Shown here piece after piece: positions 1 to 29,190 of a stretch of 32,466 bases of DNA. The stretch is from positions 1 through 32,466 of the forward strand of contig JAIPJT010000030.1 of NCBI GenBank assembly GCA_021733985.1, written 5' to 3'. Source of the DNA: Victivallales bacterium. Its GTDB lineage: Bacteria > Verrucomicrobiota > Lentisphaeria > Victivallales > GWF2-38-69. How positions within the stretch are numbered: the stretch's first letter is position 1; every line of letters starts with the position of its first letter. Both the position numbers and the translations under genes were made by a program. The notes under the pieces are model-generated. The model ran no database searches. It was given only the letters and a program-made list of their open reading frames with translations, and was not told the DNA's origin.

Positions 1-41
1 CGAAGCCATTTCTCATAAGTTGTTTTTCGGATATTCAACAT
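1..41 (-). CDS. Start of an unidentified gene leaving the window (partial)
   Basis: An ATG at 39-41 on the minus strand is preceded by a good ribosome binding site (AGGAG, 6 nt before the ATG). It opens a frame of 13 codons that runs off the window edge (MLNIRKTTYEKWL...). It lies 63 bp downstream of the two-TM/TPR gene on the same strand, so it may be the next gene of the hsd operon. The fragment is too short to identify. The restriction subunit hsdR is not seen elsewhere in the window and could lie here or further on, but these residues do not show that. Confidence 0.45.
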   Translation of the reverse strand, partial: MLNIRKTTYEKWL

Positions 42-104
42 CCTGGTCTCCTCGTTTATTTATTTTCATTACTTAACGGATACCAGAATATAATTCCGGG
101 TATG

Positions 105-1370
105 TTAATTAAAAGATGGGGCGAAATTGACGCTTACATATAATCTAAGAATCGTTTTTATAAAAGTAATCACATTTTCAACTATAATTTTAGAGCTTTG
201 TTCTATATAATTTTTTCTTATCCAATGGTGGCTTTTTCTGTAAAACTCTAGACTTTTTTGATAATTTTTTTCCCACATATATAAAAAGGCTAGAGATATA
301 TTTTTAACATGAATTTCTTCAGCATTATTGCTATTTTGAATTTTATATAAGGCTTTTATAGCATCTTTTATTCTTCTATAATGAAAATAAAAAATTGCGA
401 TTCTAATATAGTATTGATTATTGTTGCCTGTTAATTTTTGGCTTTTTATAGACAGTTCTTTATACAAATCAGCAATATGGTTTGCCTCAGAAGATGTTAT
501 TTGCATAACAAGATAACTTGAATACAATTCATCAAGTTTAAGATCATAGCAAAATGCAAGATGAAGTGAAATACCTTTAGAAAAGTTTTTTAAATTTTTA
601 TTCTTAGATTGAAAATATTTATTCCTTAAGTTAAGTAAGATTTCAACAGCTCTATCCAGATTTCTTTCTATTAAAAAAATCAAAGCTATAAAATACAAGC
701 TTATATCACTAAGATTGTTAACTATAATATTCTCATCAATAAAACTATTTTCATCAGAGCTTATGAATGCTCTTTTACCGATTGTTGAAATTATAAATCT
801 ATTATCAACAGGAGTTAAACCACCTAAGCTTTTTGCAGTGAAGTTAATGTCTATAAAGCCTTTTACTTTTTTTGACTGGATATTACCTGTGCAAAATTTC
901 CCATGAATAACAATAAAAGCATTTGATTTTTTGATGAGATTGTGAGCTGTTTTTAGTATAGTAGGCTTGTGATTAAAAGGGAGCTGTTTACATTTTATAT
1001 GTTCTGTTCCATCTTGGTTAGACAACTCGAGCTTAAACTTTTGAAATAGAGCAAAAATTTCTTTACTAAAACTACCATTAGCGTTATATGGTGCAAACAG
1101 TATCCCAATTTCATTTTTTCTAAACTTAGGAATCCTTCTTAAATTTAACCACACTAACAATATTACTAAAAGGCCAAGAATTAATAAGTAAAAAGCATAA
1201 ATGCATAGTAGGCTCTTTTTGTTTTCACCAAAAATAATAACTAGATATGGAAAACTGAATTTAAAACTAACCGCTAAAATTATAATCCAGAAACTAGAAC
1301 ATAAAATCAAAAAAAGATAAGAAGTTTTTTTATGAAAATTTTCAATAATTTTTTCTAACCAATTTATCAA
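105..1370 (-). CDS. Two-TM protein with a cytosolic alpha/beta domain and TPR-like helices, coupled to hsdS
   Basis: The protein has 421 residues and I do not recognise the family. Two hydrophobic segments (about residues 16-45 and 52-75) form a membrane hairpin followed by a basic stretch (LRRIPKFRK). Residues about 84-190 look like an alpha/beta domain: a strand 'EIGILFAPYN', then 'KSNAFIVIHGKF' and 'VKGFIDINF'. This spacing recalls the nucleotide-free TolB-N/CsgG-like fold found ahead of TPRs in bacterial sensory proteins, but that is only a resemblance. The rest is helical with TPR-like pairs (YRRIKDAIKALYKIQ, WEKNYQKSLEFYRKS). The start is TTG at 1368-1370. It overlaps the hsdS stop (TTGA) and has GAGG 7 nt upstream inside hsdS, so translation is probably coupled to hsdS. 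It is not a known HsdR or PrrC/RloC-type anticodon nuclease. Confidence 0.8.
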   Translation of the reverse strand: MINWLEKIIENFHKKTSYLFLILCSSFWIIILAVSFKFSFPYLVIIFGENKKSLLCIYAFYLLILGLLVILLVWLNLRRIPKFRKNEIGILFAPYNANGSFSKEIFALFQKFKLELSNQDGTEHIKCKQLPFNHKPTILKTAHNLIKKSNAFIVIHGKFCTGNIQSKKVKGFIDINFTAKSLGGLTPVDNRFIISTIGKRAFISSDENSFIDENIIVNNLSDISLYFIALIFLIERNLDRAVEILLNLRNKYFQSKNKNLKNFSKGISLHLAFCYDLKLDELYSSYLVMQITSSEANHIADLYKELSIKSQKLTGNNNQYYIRIAIFYFHYRRIKDAIKALYKIQNSNNAEEIHVKNISLAFLYMWEKNYQKSLEFYRKSHHWIRKNYIEQSSKIIVENVITFIKTILRLYVSVNFAPSFN

Positions 1371-2590
1371 ATCTTAACCTCAACTTTTCCTGTGAGTAAA
1401 TCCTGCATTAAACCTTGTTTTATTTTTTGAAGTTTATTTAAATAGGCTTCTTCTTTTTCAATCTTATTATCAATACTTATAAGATAATTCGATATTACAT
1501 TTTGTTCGGTTTCTTGTGGACTATATACAATAAAATCATGTAAATCATTAGAATTAATTGCTGTAAAAGTTGAGCCCTGAGCAACAATTTCAAGTTTATT
1601 CCTATTAAGCAAAATATAATCATATAAATAATCTCTATTTACTCTTTTAGTAATTATTGCACTTACCCCTCGACCTATCACATATTCTTTGTTCGCAATA
1701 TTTAAATCTCCAACAGGAGCTCTTACACTTATTAATATTGAATTTTTTGGAGCGTATTTTTTACCATCAGTACATGAATATTTATATACTGGATACTTAT
1801 CACCAAATTCAGTGCACCCTTGCAAAAATGGAATTCCAATGTTTTCTTCATTGCACGAGCTTGAAGGGGGAGATTGCCCCATTATTATATCTGCCATTTC
1901 AATCAAGCGATTAACCTCCCACTCTTTCGGGATTAGCCCGAGTTCGGATTGTTTGTAGAGGTGTGGAGCATCTTCATATTTGGGGCGGATTTTGCCGGTA
2001 TTGATGTCGATGCCCCGAGTGAAAAGGTCGTGCATCATACCTTTTTTTATTGCTTTGTATTTTTCTATGGCCTGTTCAGTCTTTTCAATAACATTATCAA
2101 CAGTTGTAAGAATTTTTGCTATTTTGCGCTGGATTAAAGGATTTGTATTTATTAAGACTCTAATCTTCTCTAAATCTGCCTTCGATATTTCAGCAAAAGT
2201 TGAACCAGCACCTTTTTGTAAGAAAACACTCTTATTGAAAAGAAAATTATAGTAATGATAAATTTCTGAATTATCTCTTTTTATTATAAAAGATTTACAA
2301 CCTTGATTTGTTGTAAAATTTTTATTAACAACAGCAAAATACCCTATAGGAGCTCGAGAAGACATAACTATATTATTTTTAGGTATGAGAACAGCAGATG
2401 AGTTTTCTAATCCTTTTACAGTAATAAATCTTTGTGAAGTAGATATTACAGGATGTTTTATGTTGCTTAAATCGGCAGGAGTTAACCATAAAATATTTCC
2501 TGCCCAAAATTCTTTAACCGTTGTTGCTGGAGTCCCTCCAGAAACAACTTCAGAGAATTCAGTAACCTGCACTTTCCTCCAATAGCTCAT
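1367..2590 (-). CDS. hsdS: Type I restriction-modification specificity subunit HsdS
   Basis: The 407 residues form the two-domain S subunit that sets the bipartite DNA target of the HsdM2S methylase and the HsdR complex. Target-recognition domain 1 begins 'WRKVQVTEFSEVVSGGTPAT', and domain 2 begins after 'LGLIPKEWEVNRLIEMADIIMG'. Each is followed by the conserved spacer helix: 'TVDNVIEKTEQAIEKYKAIK' centrally, and 'KLQKIKQGLMQDLLTGKVEV' at the C-terminus. The length is normal and no frame is broken, so it is probably functional. The ATG at 2588-2590 follows AAAGG at a good distance. The gene is separated from hsdM by the HigBA-like pair, which is unusual, and its stop overlaps the TTG start of the next gene. 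Confidence 0.95.
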   Translation of the reverse strand: MSYWRKVQVTEFSEVVSGGTPATTVKEFWAGNILWLTPADLSNIKHPVISTSQRFITVKGLENSSAVLIPKNNIVMSSRAPIGYFAVVNKNFTTNQGCKSFIIKRDNSEIYHYYNFLFNKSVFLQKGAGSTFAEISKADLEKIRVLINTNPLIQRKIAKILTTVDNVIEKTEQAIEKYKAIKKGMMHDLFTRGIDINTGKIRPKYEDAPHLYKQSELGLIPKEWEVNRLIEMADIIMGQSPPSSSCNEENIGIPFLQGCTEFGDKYPVYKYSCTDGKKYAPKNSILISVRAPVGDLNIANKEYVIGRGVSAIITKRVNRDYLYDYILLNRNKLEIVAQGSTFTAINSNDLHDFIVYSPQETEQNVISNYLISIDNKIEKEEAYLNKLQKIKQGLMQDLLTGKVEVKI

Positions 2591-2696
2591 TCAAACCTTT
2601 CTTTTATTCATCATTTTACACTTTTCTTTTCTGTGTTCTTTCAGTTATTTCCGTGGTCCTTTTCTCTGTCGAAGTCGCTTTCCTAAAGCCAATCAA
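2591..2696. other. Spacer between higA-like gene and hsdS with a GxxExxY-leader-like sequence
   Basis: This 106-bp spacer is much longer than the other gaps near it (13 bp between higB and higA). On the minus strand it contains GGACCACGG, then AACTGAAAGAACACAGAAAA. This has the rhythm of the purine-rich leader (ACCACGAAGAGCACGAAGGACAC) in front of the GxxExxY gene near 29160. It may be the scar of an insertion or deletion. No promoter is evident. Confidence 0.3.
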
Positions 2697-3776
2697 TTAT
2701 AAATTCTCCAGTTTATCTCTCACACTATTTTTTAATTTATTTAGTGTTGTTTTATAACTCAGTTTTTTATTATGCTGCAAAGAACCCACAATTATAGCCT
2801 TGTTAATTTCCAGGAATTCTGAACATTGAGATATTTTCTGCAGTCCCGGATTTTTTATATTCATAAAAAATCGTGAAATTTCATCAAGCTTTAAAATTCT
2901 CCTGGCAAACTTATCTGCTTCCAACTCCATTTGATCAGTAGAATCAACCTCATCAAGATTATCGATAAACTGATTATGATCTTTATGTAGAATTATATGT
3001 CCCAGCTCATGTGCGATGGTAAACCAGAAGTTGTCATTTCTGTTATGTCTGCCGGTGTAAACCAGCACCGGATTTTCATTTTGAGAAAATACCGCACCGT
3101 CAATATATGTTTTTTCAAAATGCGGAAGGTAAATAAATATTACACCGCATTCACTAAGAGCGCTGATAAACCCAGCAATGCCATTTTCTTTTACAGTAAA
3201 GCGGCAGATATCATCTATGATCAGTCTTAATTTTTCCGGATTGTAAGCTGTCACTTTTTTTCTTTTTTCAGCTTCGATTTCACATAATCTAAGCCATGTA
3301 ATTGCAAAATATACATTATACTGGCTATAGCAGTCTGCTTTTCTAAACAATGCCTCTGCTTTCTTATCAATAAAGCTGAAATCCAGTTTGTTGATTTTCC
3401 AGAAGCTTTTCACTGCTGCTGCTAAATCCGATATAGCTTCAGGCAAAATATTTCTTTTTCTCATTTCACGTATAGGCATATATCTATATAACAAAGCTTT
3501 TGCAGCAGTAGTATCTTCTTCTGCTGATTCCTGGAGTCTCAGTCTATATTGAGTATCAAGATTAATCCAGAATTGCGGTGACTGTTTAAAAATCTTACTG
3601 AGTTTACATGCTGTATCAAAACTGACAGGAGCTTTATTGTTTATTAAATCACTCACATGCTTTGCGCTTATACCCATTACATCGGCTAAATCTTTCTGAT
3701 CCCAGCCATAAAACTCAAGTTCTTCTTTGATTGTATCACCAGGACCAAGTGTAACAAATGGTTTGTACTTACTCAT
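2697..3776 (-). CDS. higA: HigA-type antitoxin fused to ImmA/IrrE-family zinc metalloprotease domain
   Basis: The 359-residue protein has two parts. Residues 8-80 are a HigA/VapI-type Xre helix-turn-helix with the typical opening 'GPGDTIKEELEFYGWDQKDL' and the 'SPQFWINLDTQYRL' signature, expected to bind the module's promoter. Residues about 180-300 are an ImmA/IrrE-like metalloprotease: HELGH at 256-260 supplies the two zinc histidines and catalytic glutamate, and 'ELEADKFARRIL' supplies the third ligand helix. HigA with this extension (about 350-380 aa) is a known architecture; plain HigA is about 100 aa. The ATG follows a strong ribosome site, TAGGAGG. It starts 13 bp after the HigB-like toxin gene, so toxin precedes antitoxin, as in HigBA modules. 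It sits inside the hsd operon. Confidence 0.88.
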   Translation of the reverse strand: MSKYKPFVTLGPGDTIKEELEFYGWDQKDLADVMGISAKHVSDLINNKAPVSFDTACKLSKIFKQSPQFWINLDTQYRLRLQESAEEDTTAAKALLYRYMPIREMRKRNILPEAISDLAAAVKSFWKINKLDFSFIDKKAEALFRKADCYSQYNVYFAITWLRLCEIEAEKRKKVTAYNPEKLRLIIDDICRFTVKENGIAGFISALSECGVIFIYLPHFEKTYIDGAVFSQNENPVLVYTGRHNRNDNFWFTIAHELGHIILHKDHNQFIDNLDEVDSTDQMELEADKFARRILKLDEISRFFMNIKNPGLQKISQCSEFLEINKAIIVGSLQHNKKLSYKTTLNKLKNSVRDKLENL

Positions 3777-3789
3777 AATCCCGTTCCTC

Positions 3790-4098
3790 CTAACTATAAT
3801 GATTGGAAATATCCAATATTAAAACATCTCCAAAGGTTTTTTCTTCATCCTTGAATTCAATTTCAAACACCAGGCGATATTGCTGATTTATCCTTATTGA
3901 AAATCTGTTATCATAACCCTGAAGTTTTTCAAATTTCATTGAAGGCGGCTCTCTTAAATCATTTATCGTATCAGCTGCTTCAATTTTTCCTATTCTTTCA
4001 ACAAACTTTAAAGGAACACCCTTGGGCAGTTTATACTTCCTTGACTTCCCTTTTGTATAAAGATCTACCAGATGCTTAGTTTTAAAATCAAGTTCCAT
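3790..4098 (-). CDS. higB: HigB/RelE-family toxin
   Basis: The 102-residue protein has the signature of HigB-type mRNA interferases (plasmid-maintenance killer family): 'DFKTKHLVDLYTKGKSRKYKLP', 'AADTINDLREPPSMKFEKLQG' and 'RFSIRINQQYRLVFEI'. Family members cleave ribosome-bound mRNA. The C-terminal 'DVLILDISNHYS' fits the usual ending '...DISDYH'. The length is full (usually 90-110 aa). The next gene is its probable antitoxin. A promoter-like region and a small inverted repeat lie upstream, between it and hsdM, so the pair may be expressed separately from the rest of the operon. Family assignment is secure; activity is inferred. Confidence 0.88.
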   Translation of the reverse strand: MELDFKTKHLVDLYTKGKSRKYKLPKGVPLKFVERIGKIEAADTINDLREPPSMKFEKLQGYDNRFSIRINQQYRLVFEIEFKDEEKTFGDVLILDISNHYS

Positions 4099-4107
4099 TA
4101 TTACCGT

Positions 4108-4148
4108 TTACATATAAGTAAGTATACTATTAATTATATCTAATACAA
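4108..4148 (-). promoter_or_regulatory. Probable higBA promoter with operator-like inverted repeat
   Basis: On the minus strand a -35-like TTGTAT (4143-4148) and a -10-like TATACT (4121-4126) are 16 bp apart. Just downstream, TTAC-N6-GTAA (4108-4121) is an inverted repeat that overlaps the -10 box and lies 10-23 nt before the higB start. HigA proteins repress their own operons by binding such sites. The region is very AT-rich, so both elements could occur by chance. Confidence 0.35.
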
Positions 4149-4165
4149 TATATATTATTACCTAT

Positions 4166-6790
4166 TTAGTAATTATATATATCATATCCTAATTCTTTCA
4201 GAAATATATTAAGTTGTTCAGCTTCCTGCTCTCTATCTTCTAATACTCCATTCAGAGTGACAGTGTATTTATCCCAAAGGTTTTCTATTTTATGAAGAAA
4301 CTCTCTTTTGTATTCATTAAGGTAATTTTCAACAGTATTATGTAGCTGAAGTTTCCAACGTTTCAAAATCAGCTCCTCAGCTTCAGAAGGAGTGATTTTT
4401 TCTCTTGCCTTATCTACCAGCTCTTCTTTACGATCTTTAATTTCCTTGATGGTTTTTCTTGCTGTTTTAAGCTTCTGCTCATATGCATTATGCGTGGATA
4501 ATTTTTTTTCAACCTCATTAACAGTTTGCTCTATTGGTTCCAGAAGACTACTTTGCTCGTTTAATTGAAGAATAATTTCATCCAGTTCAGGAGAAAAACC
4601 TGTCTTTTGATTGTTTATTTTGTCAATACTTAACTTATCTTTAGAAACCTTTAATTCTTTAATAATTGGAGAAGACAGGGCTTTATATCTCTTTTGTAGA
4701 TTTTTAATTTCTTTACTGATTGTTTTCTGCTCTCCCTTTACTTCTTTTAGCTTGTCCTTCAGCTCTTTTAGGATATTTTTTGGGTATACTTCATGGTTTT
4801 CTTCAACAAATTCGTCTTCTTCAAGATCATTTACTTCGTTAAACATGCCTTCTATTTCATTACGCAAAGACTCATTATCTTTTAGTTCCTGCAATACTTC
4901 AGGAAACTGAGAAATAAGAATCTCTTCTTCTGGTATTAATTCAGCATTCCAGCCACTTGATGCAACAGATTTCAAATCACTTTCAATACTATTCCAGTAA
5001 GAAGCAAAAGCACCTCTAGACTTGAAAATATCCAGGACACCAATTTTAGCAAATTCTTCTGAAATACTGGTGGCAAACTCTTTATTCAGTTCAAAAACAT
5101 CTCTGTTTTTAGGTAGATTCTTTAGTCTTGTTATCGTTTTACCCCACCATTGATCAATAGCCTTATCATAAATTGAAAATTTATCTTTAATTTCTTCTGA
5201 ATTATCTATTAATTGTCTAATTTCTTCTTTTCCATTAAAAATATTTTTGAATTTCATATAACCCGTTTTCAGCCTATCAAAAAGCTTTTCCTGTAAGCCG
5301 GTAAAATTATTAAAGTAAGATGCTAAAGATAGTATTTCAGTTTCCGGTATACCTCCATGTAAATGAGCGTGAACATCATTTGGTTCAGCTGGCGGTGAAT
5401 TATCAACATAACGCCTGATATTGAAGTTAAATTCCTCTTTTTCCAGTTCAGCGAGGTTTACCTTTTTAGAATAACCTTCAATTTCAATTTTATTATGATA
5501 TACATAGCTTATTTTGGTTATATCTTCAGGCCGGAGTTTATTTTGATTTTTTCCATCTTTAAATTCCCTGTCAGCATTAATAAACAAAACATCATCTCGT
5601 TTATGGGCATTTTTTTTATTTATTATTAAAATACAGGCAGGTATTCCTGTTCCGTAAAAAAGTCCCTGTGGTAAACCTATGACAGCTTCAAGGATAACAG
5701 CTCCTTCTCTTACCAGCCATTTTCTCATAGCTTTTTCTTCGCTACCACGAAACAATACACCATGCGGCATAACTGTTGCCATTCTTCCGGAATTTTTAAG
5801 TACACTTATCATATGCTGAACAAACATAAAATCCGCTTTTTTCTTTTTAGGCATCCAGAACCTGTAGCGCTCTCTATGTTCCTTGATTTCGCCATAATTC
5901 TGTGAAAAAGGTGGATTTGCAATAACTATATCAAATCTTTGCAATTCTCCATTTTCAATATGTTGAGGTTTTGCAAGTGTATCTTCATTTAGAATATTTG
6001 AATCATATATACTATGAAAAAGCATATTCATTTTACAGATAGACCAGGTTGTACCATTCGATTCCTGACCGTAAAAGCTCAAATCATCTGTGTTGCCATA
6101 TCTTGCTTCAACATAGTTCTTAGATTCTATTAGCATACCTCCAGAACCAACTGTTGGATCATAGATTTCTGAATTTTCTTCCGGCCCAAGAATACTAACC
6201 ATTAACCTAACAACTTCATTGGGAGTATAAAATTCTCCGCCTTTCTTGCCTGCACTGTCAGCAAAATATTTTATGAGATATTCGTAGGCTGCCCCAAGCA
6301 AATCAGGGAATTCAAAATTTTCATCTTTTAGTGGTACAGGATTAAAGTGATGTATAAAATCTTCCAAAGTTTCATCTGTCAAAGTTTTCTTGTTTTTACC
6401 AATGGTTCTGTTGAAATTAATATTCTTTAAAACACCAAGTAGTTTATCTTCATTAGAATCTTCGAGAGCAGCGAGCGCTTTATTTAATTCATCCCCAATA
6501 TTTTCCTTCAGATCTTTTATATTTTTCCATCTGGCTCTCTCAGGGACATAATATTCATAAGCTTTTGGTTTTTCCAGATATGGCTTTAGATCCTCAGAAA
6601 CAATATTTTTTTCTTTTGCTTCTTTTGCTCTTACTTTCCTATCATCATCAAACTTGTCACTAAGACGTTTCAGGAAAAGCATTCCAAAAATGTATTCTTT
6701 AAATTCAGAAGCATCCATATTGCCCCTTAGTTTATCGCAAGCTTCCATAAGGAAACCTTCTAACCACGCTAAAGAATATTTTCTTTTCAT
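4166..6790 (-). CDS. hsdM: Type I restriction-modification methylase subunit HsdM with long coiled-coil C-terminus
   Basis: This is the N6-adenine DNA methylase subunit of a type I R-M system. The N-terminal helical domain ([20 protein letters not shown], residues 10-29) is typical. The SAM-binding motif DPTVGSGG is at 211-218 and the catalytic NPPF at 292-295; '[17 protein letters not shown]' precedes them. At 874 residues it is about 350 residues longer than common HsdM proteins (about 500). The extra part, from about residue 500, is acidic to basic helical sequence. From about 640 to 800 it becomes strongly coiled-coil-like ([20 protein letters not shown]). Longer HsdM forms of this sort exist in databases as I recall, so the tail may be a subfamily trait. 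The ATG at 6788-6790 is the first gene of the operon as seen here. Confidence 0.95.
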
Positions 6791-27562: not shown

Positions 27563-27961
27563 TTATGAATTTATTAATTTAATTGGCAGGTATTTACGAT
27601 AAAATGTAAAGTCTTTATCATCAGTATAAATATAAAAATTATTCGTAAATGCTATAGAACAAATTAAATAATCTATTGCTGAACCTTGAATTCCATTACT
27701 TCTACACAAATTGTTAAACTCAGCTGCTTTGACAAAATGCTTTGTTTGCAAAGGAATATCTTCAAATGCAGATAAATGATTCTTTATCTTTTCAAATTGT
27801 TCTTTATGTGTAATGCCGGATAAAATTTCCTGCCTGATTGGTCCAATGATTACAACCCGACCGTCAAAAATAAGATCTGATAGTTTCTGTGAAACTTTAT
27901 TATCTGAGTTTTTTCTTCTAAGAGCTTTTGACCAGATACATGTATCAACTAATACTTTCAT
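27563..27961 (-). CDS. vapC: VapC-type PIN-domain toxin
   Basis: The 132-residue PIN-domain ribonuclease toxin has the acidic metal-binding residues in place: Asp6 in 'VLVDTCIWSKAL', Glu45 in 'IRQEILSG', Asp97 in 'GSAIDYLICSIA' and Asp114/115 in 'IYTDDKDF'. The length is typical. VapC toxins cut specific tRNAs or rRNA when not bound by VapB. It starts 2 bp after its antitoxin gene and should be co-translated with it. All catalytic residues are present, so the toxin is probably active. Confidence 0.92.
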   Translation of the reverse strand: MKVLVDTCIWSKALRRKNSDNKVSQKLSDLIFDGRVVIIGPIRQEILSGITHKEQFEKIKNHLSAFEDIPLQTKHFVKAAEFNNLCRSNGIQGSAIDYLICSIAFTNNFYIYTDDKDFTFYRKYLPIKLINS

Positions 27962-28836: not shown

Positions 28837-29190
28837 TTACTCCTTTTCCAATTTCATATATGTCAGCAGCTGTGCTTCGTGGATTCCTTTTATTTCTTCT
28901 ACACTTTTTAATTCTATTATCAATTCATCTTCAATTAAAACATCTACTCTGTAACCACAATCAAGTCGTGCATCTTTATATGCTACCGGTAGAGGATGCT
29001 GAAGTTTGAAATCTATATTGTTCAATTTTAATTCATGAGCTAAGCACTGCTCATAAGTTGATTTCAGTAATCCTGGACCAAGAGTACGGTGGACTTCTAT
29101 TGCACAACCGATAACTTTATTCGACAGTTTATCAAATTCCATTTTCTTAGTGTCCTTCGTGCTCTTCGTGGTTAATTTTTTATGTAACAT
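28837..29190 (-). CDS. GxxExxY protein, C-terminally shortened
   Basis: The 117-residue protein belongs to the GxxExxY family (PD-(D/E)XK-related fold, function unknown, common in environmental and PVC genomes). The hallmark is 'VIGCAIEVHRTLGPGLLKST' followed by 'YEQCLAHEL', then 'LDCGYRVDVLIEDELIIELK' and 'IHEAQLLTYMKL'. Intact members continue for about 20 residues ending like 'GLLINFNV...'; here 'LEKE' and a stop come instead. The usual repeat-like leader (LTTKSTKDTKK) precedes the core at Met17. The active-site-like Asp and Glu-x-Lys (DVLIED...IELK) are retained. An attC-like site abuts its start, and an antitoxin fragment follows in frame. Confidence 0.8.
   Translation of the reverse strand: MLHKKLTTKSTKDTKKMEFDKLSNKVIGCAIEVHRTLGPGLLKSTYEQCLAHELKLNNIDFKLQHPLPVAYKDARLDCGYRVDVLIEDELIIELKSVEEIKGIHEAQLLTYMKLEKE

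Follow-up and report, generated by a model that had tools for sequence, protein, structure and literature searches.

The 32,466-nucleotide contig JAIPJT010000030.1 of a Victivallales bacterium (assembly GCA_021733985.1), hereafter called the window, is one whole contig of a 2.46-Mb genome that is 96% complete. On its minus strand, it carries a type I restriction-modification (R-M) operon in which two genes, one encoding a HigB-like protein and one encoding a HigA protein fused to an ImmA-type peptidase (HigA-ImmA), lie between hsdM and hsdS. On balance, and with moderate confidence, this locus is explained as a type I modification operon with a cassette resembling the anti-phage system PD-lambda-2, which would act both as a second layer of defence and as an internal regulator. 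Rather than having been inserted by chance, the cassette probably recurs as a second line of phage defence that regulates itself. What can be read from the sequence is the identity and order of the genes, an intact HExxH motif, an operator-like palindrome and the repeated recruitment of the HigA-ImmA family to restriction operons.

The HigB/HigA-ImmA pair and its candidate operator

HigA-ImmA was matched above the cut-off by the HigA profile TIGR02607 (2.9e-15), as well as by PF01381 and Peptidase_M78 (PF06114, 2.8e-10), and its HELGH (HExxH) motif is encoded at 2997-3011. With a HigB-fold protein (PF05015, over the cut-off) encoded upstream of a HigA helix-turn-helix (HTH) protein, the pair displays the architecture of a type II HigBA toxin-antitoxin (TA) system. 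Among defence models, by far the best match of HigA-ImmA was PADLOC PD-Lambda-2_B (PDLC03982, 3.6e-47), which spans residues 7-356 and thus nearly the full length of the protein. Weaker matches were obtained to capP for the peptidase part (7.2e-13) and to RmrA of RosmerTA (up to 5.2e-14); RmrA is likewise an antitoxin composed of HTH and ImmA parts, but this match is far weaker than that to PD-Lambda-2_B and the toxins of the two systems differ. Because the HExxH motif is conserved in 51/51 HigA-ImmA homologues, the peptidase activity of the protein is probably under selection.

PD-lambda-2 is a validated anti-phage system of E. coli that aborts infection (Vassallo et al. 2022, PMC9519451), and it shares with the window a HigB-like gene followed by a HigA-type HTH fused to an ImmA-type peptidase. 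Since its component B, the HigA-peptidase, is toxic by itself and the HigB-like component A counteracts this toxicity (component C being additionally required for defence; PMC9519451), the toxin and antitoxin roles that the initial annotation had assigned to HigB and HigA, respectively, may by analogy be reversed here.

A candidate HigA operator, ATTACCTATTTAGTAAT at 4157-4173, has perfect 5-bp arms and a 7-bp spacer (p 0.003 versus shuffles). It is the sole copy of this site in the window, with no second operator upstream of hsdM, and it is identical at 15/17 positions to sites that precede higBA at locus L156 and on a Methylorubrum plasmid (L246), an agreement that no shuffle attained. The initial consensus, WTTAC-N7-GTAAW, proved too restrictive and gave way to TTxAC-N7-GTxAA, which was then tested on a second set of loci. 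A perfect palindrome of the latter type was found upstream of higB at 13/38 loci, where shuffles would give 0.075, and its distance to higB hardly varies; it was found at 0/28 loci encoding a HigA with an HTH domain only. In the second set (12 plasmid loci fetched afterwards), two sites were perfect (0.02 expected) and four scored at least 8/9 points (0.41 expected). The outermost bases of the window site do not fit TTxAC/GTxAA, leaving it at 7/9 points, so that its support derives mainly from its arms and from its likeness to the L156 and L246 sites. A generic sigma-70 promoter scan yielded 26 matches versus 31.7 expected and was thus of no use in DNA this rich in AT. Because the candidate site overlaps the hsdM stop codon, HigA is predicted to control higB, higA, hsdS and the gene downstream of hsdS, probably leaving hsdM outside this regulon.

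Recurrence of HigA-ImmA in restriction operons

HigA-ImmA homologues (E < 1e-15) were present in 28/388 genomes of the same phylum, and of 51 sampled HigA-ImmA loci, 11 belonged to or adjoined a type I operon. At 8/31 HigA-ImmA loci and at 0/29 HTH-only HigA loci, hsd genes lay on the same strand no more than 5 kb away (p 0.005), although this comparison is weakened by the different taxonomic depths at which the two sets, long and short, were drawn. The initial annotation had proposed a look for hsdM and hsdS flanking such a pair in other genomes, and modules of this kind were indeed encountered inside or adjoining type I operons in several phyla. At L126 (hsdR-hsdM-higB-higA-hsdS) the order from hsdM to hsdS is identical to that of the window, with a divergent, unrelated HsdM of 465 aa and an EcoEI-type HsdR. 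The module also lies inside complete or near-complete type I operons at L156 (hsdM-hsdS-higB-higA-hsdR), on a Microscilla sp. plasmid (hsdM-NTPase-higB-higA-hsdS) and at L168 and L176 (hsdM-hsdS-A-B-hsdR), where the pair matches the A and B models of PD-Lambda-2 (B at 1e-139 to 1e-143). Additionally, plasmids of Deinococcus radiophilus (hsdM-hsdS-DUF262-higB-higA-Fic) and Thauera sp. (hsdS-hsdR-higB-higA) carry it beside hsd genes. The pair was found in 63 plasmid records. According to the initial annotation, the arrangement would be a chance insertion if unrelated genes had entered the operon at random; because the embedding of HigBA-ImmA in type I operons is real and recurrent, and was not seen for HTH-only HigA, this objection fails.

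When 51 HigA-ImmA proteins were placed on a tree, the R-M label (11 rows) changed 11 times, eight of these changes being forced by well-supported branches, and it showed no clustering, since a mean of about 10 changes was obtained upon shuffling. Because of this scatter, the tree indicates that separate HigA-ImmA lineages have been recruited to R-M operons repeatedly. Viewed from the HsdM side, a gene between hsdM and hsdS was observed at 2/58 loci where both were recognised, while extra genes lay between hsdS and hsdR at 34/51 loci of the HsdM clade of the window; where recognised, this cargo consists largely of defence genes (GmrSD/DUF262, DarTG, Schlafen, Fic, AbiE, RloB and SIR2). The placement of higBA in the window is thus unusual, and the gene after hsdS occupies an ordinary cargo slot.

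Several observations weigh against the reading of the cassette as a recurring PD-lambda-2-like layer of defence. Two of the eight hsd-linked loci counted above are loose, as L170 depends on a weak 30-bit match and L161 lies 2 kb away, and without them the comparison becomes 6/31 versus 0/29 (p about 0.02). Only about a quarter of the HigA-ImmA relatives lie by R-M genes, and therefore the module does not need R-M; many loci lack a clear operator (e.g. L153, L172, L178 and L180). As regards the guard function suggested by the initial annotation, the pair was found in none of the close HsdM relatives (44-63% identity; 58 hsdM-hsdS loci), which agrees with one part of what the initial annotation had listed as contrary evidence, namely hsd relatives lacking higBA, whereas the other part, random cargo, is at odds with the predominance of defence genes among recognised cargo. 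Since these relatives lack higBA and the label changes 11 times on the HigA tree without clustering, the association between HigBA-ImmA and R-M has been gained or lost many times, and an obligate, co-evolved guard pair is not visible. With respect to PD-lambda-2, the window HigB-like protein matched neither PD-Lambda-2_A nor any other PADLOC family, and no match to the P4-antitoxin-like component C was found among the five complete operon genes. On account of these two differences, to which the embedding in a type I operon may be added, the window pair is PD-lambda-2-like and not PD-lambda-2. Finally, hsdR is absent from the window and was not found in the rest of the genome with TIGR00348, HSDR_N (PF04313) or a same-clade HsdR query. 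The contig ends 3' of the operon, and hsdR may lie in an assembly gap; the operon may therefore represent either a restriction system broken by assembly or a modification-only operon.

The neighbourhoods of HigA-ImmA also include an SNF2 helicase (L153), an EcoEI-type HsdR (L158), an MmeI/Eco57I-type methylase (L166) and an N6_N4 methylase (L179), and the R-M link therefore reaches beyond classic type I operons. On plasmids of Rhodococcus, Streptomyces and Clavibacter (L239, L240 and L248) and of Methylorubrum (L246), HigA-ImmA modules stand divergently beside ubiquitin-like ThiF/multiubiquitin operons or E2/TIR genes, and the stretch between module and neighbour contains palindromes of the TTxAC-N7-GTxAA class. 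The module may therefore be a regulator or partner of several types of defence; since actinobacterial plasmids carry it next to ubiquitin-like ThiF operons, HigA-ImmA would seem to be a general accessory of defence operons.

Proposed mechanism and rival explanations

It is proposed that a type I operon, with its hsdR presumably beyond the contig end, acquired the cassette between hsdM and hsdS, and that a membrane TPR (tetratricopeptide repeat) gene entered the position behind hsdS, where defence cargo is usually found. The HTH domain of HigA would bind the candidate operator and repress the promoter of higB-higA-hsdS-TPR, as judged from the sequence, and hsdM would be left on its own promoter. 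Upon infection or DNA damage, the ImmA protease domain would, by analogy with related switches, become activated and the HTH part would be cut or lost, which would release hsdS and the genes after it from repression and upset the balance between HigB and HigA-ImmA. Protein synthesis would then halt, and the infection would abort where restriction alone fails; the active poison could be either partner, given the toxic HigA-peptidase of PD-lambda-2. Such a repressor-protease switch is favoured because ImmA/IrrE-type proteases cleave HTH repressors, with single-stranded DNA as the trigger for CapP/CapH and PprI/DdrO (PMC10904395), and a comparable scheme has been proposed for Rosmer-like TA systems (PMC10440598). 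CapH/CapP of CBASS (cyclic oligonucleotide-based anti-phage signalling systems) and DdrO/PprI (IrrE) likewise combine an HTH repressor with an ImmA/IrrE-class metallopeptidase, whereas the window version is a single polypeptide paired with a HigB toxin fold; the features of the CapHP and IrrE-DdrO switches that it displays (intact HExxH protease, HTH and palindromic operator) are seen at the sequence level only. The complete scheme, in which a one-polypeptide repressor-protease that was recruited independently many times controls hsdS from an internal operator and, once R-M fails or DNA is damaged, primes a HigB-type shutdown, is advanced tentatively.

The initial annotation had suggested a guard function; in such a scheme, intact HsdM/HsdS would hold HigBA-ImmA inactive and inhibition of the R-M enzyme by a phage would free the poison. 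PrrC, the model for such a guard, is an ABC-ATPase/anticodon nuclease, and no domain of this type was detected by domain searches in any gene of the window operon, which otherwise resembles EcoprrI in having a putative toxic effector gene within a type I operon. PrrC is embedded in EcoprrI and is released when T4 Stp inhibits the enzyme (PMC12707154), and the presence of the module inside hsd operons of several lineages, including L168 and L176, whose PD-Lambda-2 A and B proteins are encoded between hsdS and hsdR, is in keeping with this precedent. However, the module accompanies HsdM proteins of many types and is mostly found away from R-M, its position varies (between hsdM and hsdS, between hsdS and hsdR, or after hsdR), it also adjoins ThiF/multiubiquitin operons, and the unclustered R-M label on the HigA tree is a misfit to a co-evolved protein interface. 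The varied position, the ThiF neighbours and the poor persistence of the R-M link therefore disfavour a dedicated contact with HsdM/HsdS, and we consider the guard function unlikely.

Still less probable is addiction, whereby the TA pair would stabilise a mobile R-M cassette and loss of the operon would kill the cell. HTH-only HigBA pairs, which are equally good addiction modules, showed no link to hsd genes (0/29), the strictly kept protease domain is unneeded for plain addiction, and PD-lambda-2 is an anti-phage system; these points count against it despite the TA architecture, the plasmid occurrence, the recurrent independent gains and an operator-like site that hints at autoregulation. Neutral hitchhiking, in which insertion into hsd operons is a by-product of defence islands rich in mobile defence genes, is in keeping with the common and varied cargo between hsdS and hsdR in the HsdM clade. 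It is nevertheless the least credible of the three, since the cargo that was recognised is mostly made up of defence genes and is not random, the rarely open hsdM-hsdS gap holds higBA in the same orientation and order in the window and at L126, and the operator-like site is located at the hsdM stop codon.

Both TA pairs inside type I operons and PD-lambda-2 are already known. A DarTG2 TA pair resides inside the type I R-M system of enteropathogenic E. coli, in the RRDM island (PMC12255303), and, like the window cassette, lies between hsd genes; DarT and macro-domain (DarG) genes are likewise among the cargo of loci whose HsdM is closely related to that of the window. RRDM differs in its ADP-ribosylation of DNA, in its use of the hsdS-hsdR slot rather than that between hsdM and hsdS, and in having a separate repressor, RptR. 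In the open-access papers searched, no description was found of recurrent PD-lambda-2-like HigBA-ImmA in type I operons, of its placement between hsdM and hsdS, or of a conserved operator. The analysis thus ties PD-lambda-2, a validated but poorly understood defence TA system, to restriction-modification across phyla and predicts a specific operator and regulon, while L176, L168, L126 and the Deinococcus and Microscilla plasmids offer natural operons in which a coupling between restriction and abortive shutdown could be probed directly.

The two-TM/TPR protein and layout of the locus

The gene after hsdS encodes a protein with two N-terminal transmembrane (TM) segments (about 15-48 and 51-81 in a hydropathy scan), which form a membrane anchor, followed by a small cytoplasmic alpha/beta region and C-terminal helical/TPR repeats, with no further known domain. 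The window copy gives just a weak TPR match (E 0.002), which falls below the cut-off, and the match is clear in one relative (TPR_19, 4.6e-7). Homologues occur in 5/388 genomes of the phylum, that of the window included; those in two genomes of the same family share 39-42% identity with it, and one of these directly follows hsdS. The gene follows hsdS at two of the five homologous loci, namely in the window and in a different type I operon (L124, 2749-11222), which comprises an EcoEI-type hsdR, a Fic-like gene, hsdM, hsdS, the two-TM/TPR homologue and then Abi_C (PF14355). No defence neighbours were recognised at L123 and L227, and the homologue at L127 lies at a contig edge with a possible HNH gene (by eye) after it. 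As higBA was not seen beside the gene at the other four loci, the co-occurrence of the two-TM protein with the hsdM-higBA-hsdS arrangement, which the initial annotation had raised, was not borne out, and its tie to R-M is loose. Searches of plasmids gave no match to the protein, those of the PDB gave no convincing relative (best E 0.23), and its single-sequence AlphaFold model was poor (mean pLDDT, the predicted local distance difference test, 42.5). The protein is a rare accessory that has twice been placed after hsdS; an effector role for it would be a guess. Neither HigA-ImmA nor the two-TM/TPR protein had a close relative on viral contigs, leaving a phage-borne origin without support.

The coordinates of the operon are collected in Table 1. 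Domain searches and translation of the minus strand confirmed the gene order, the motifs and the overlap between hsdS and the two-TM gene given by the initial annotation; its final gene is present as a start, of which just 13 codons precede the contig end. Membership of type I R-M is indicated by an HsdM with N6-adenine methyltransferase and HsdM_N domains (N6_Mtase PF02384, 1.5e-103; HsdM_N PF12161, 2e-28; TIGR00497 over the cut-off; PADLOC MTase_I, 1.7e-241) and by a two-domain HsdS, the domains of both proteins being complete. The TGA stop of hsdS and the TTG start of the two-TM/TPR gene share TTGA, a 4-nt overlap, and this start is backed by N-terminal conservation in relatives.

Table 1. 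Features of the operon, listed in minus-strand order
Feature	Position	Strand	Remarks
hsdM, type I DNA N6-adenine methyltransferase	4166..6790	(-)	874 aa; long C-terminal coiled coil
Candidate HigA operator ATTACCTATTTAGTAAT	4157..4173	strandless	Overlaps hsdM stop codon; 58 bp to higB start
higB-like gene, RelE-fold HigB family	3790..4098	(-)	102 aa; PF05015 4.9e-13, over cut-off
higA-immA, HTH antitoxin/repressor fused to ImmA/IrrE metallopeptidase	2697..3776	(-)	359 aa
hsdS	1367..2590	(-)	407 aa; Methylase_S PF01420 1.2e-45, two stretches = two target-recognition domains
Two-TM/TPR protein gene	105..1370	(-)	421 aa; TTG start
Start of gene cut at contig end (MLNIRKTTYEKWL...)	1..41	(-)	13 codons; translation and ribosome-binding site

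The 106-nt gap between higA and hsdS showed no terminator-like hairpin. It contains, at 2597-2690, a CCACGGAAATAACTGAAAGAACACAGAAAAG-like stretch resembling the ACCACGAAGAGCACGAAGGACACTAAGAAA leader of an apparent GxxExxY-type gene elsewhere in the window (28837-29190), and a dispersed repeat may thus have been involved in rearrangement at this gap. A second type I locus of the same genome (L007, contig C29, 111-2802) comprises an hsdM of 484 aa, a 292-aa protein that by eye is ORF6N/KilA-N-like and then, close to where the contig ends, a short piece of hsdS; here too, a gene separates hsdM from hsdS. Elsewhere in the window, an open reading frame of 132 aa at 27563-27961 resembles, by eye, a VapC/PIN-domain toxin.

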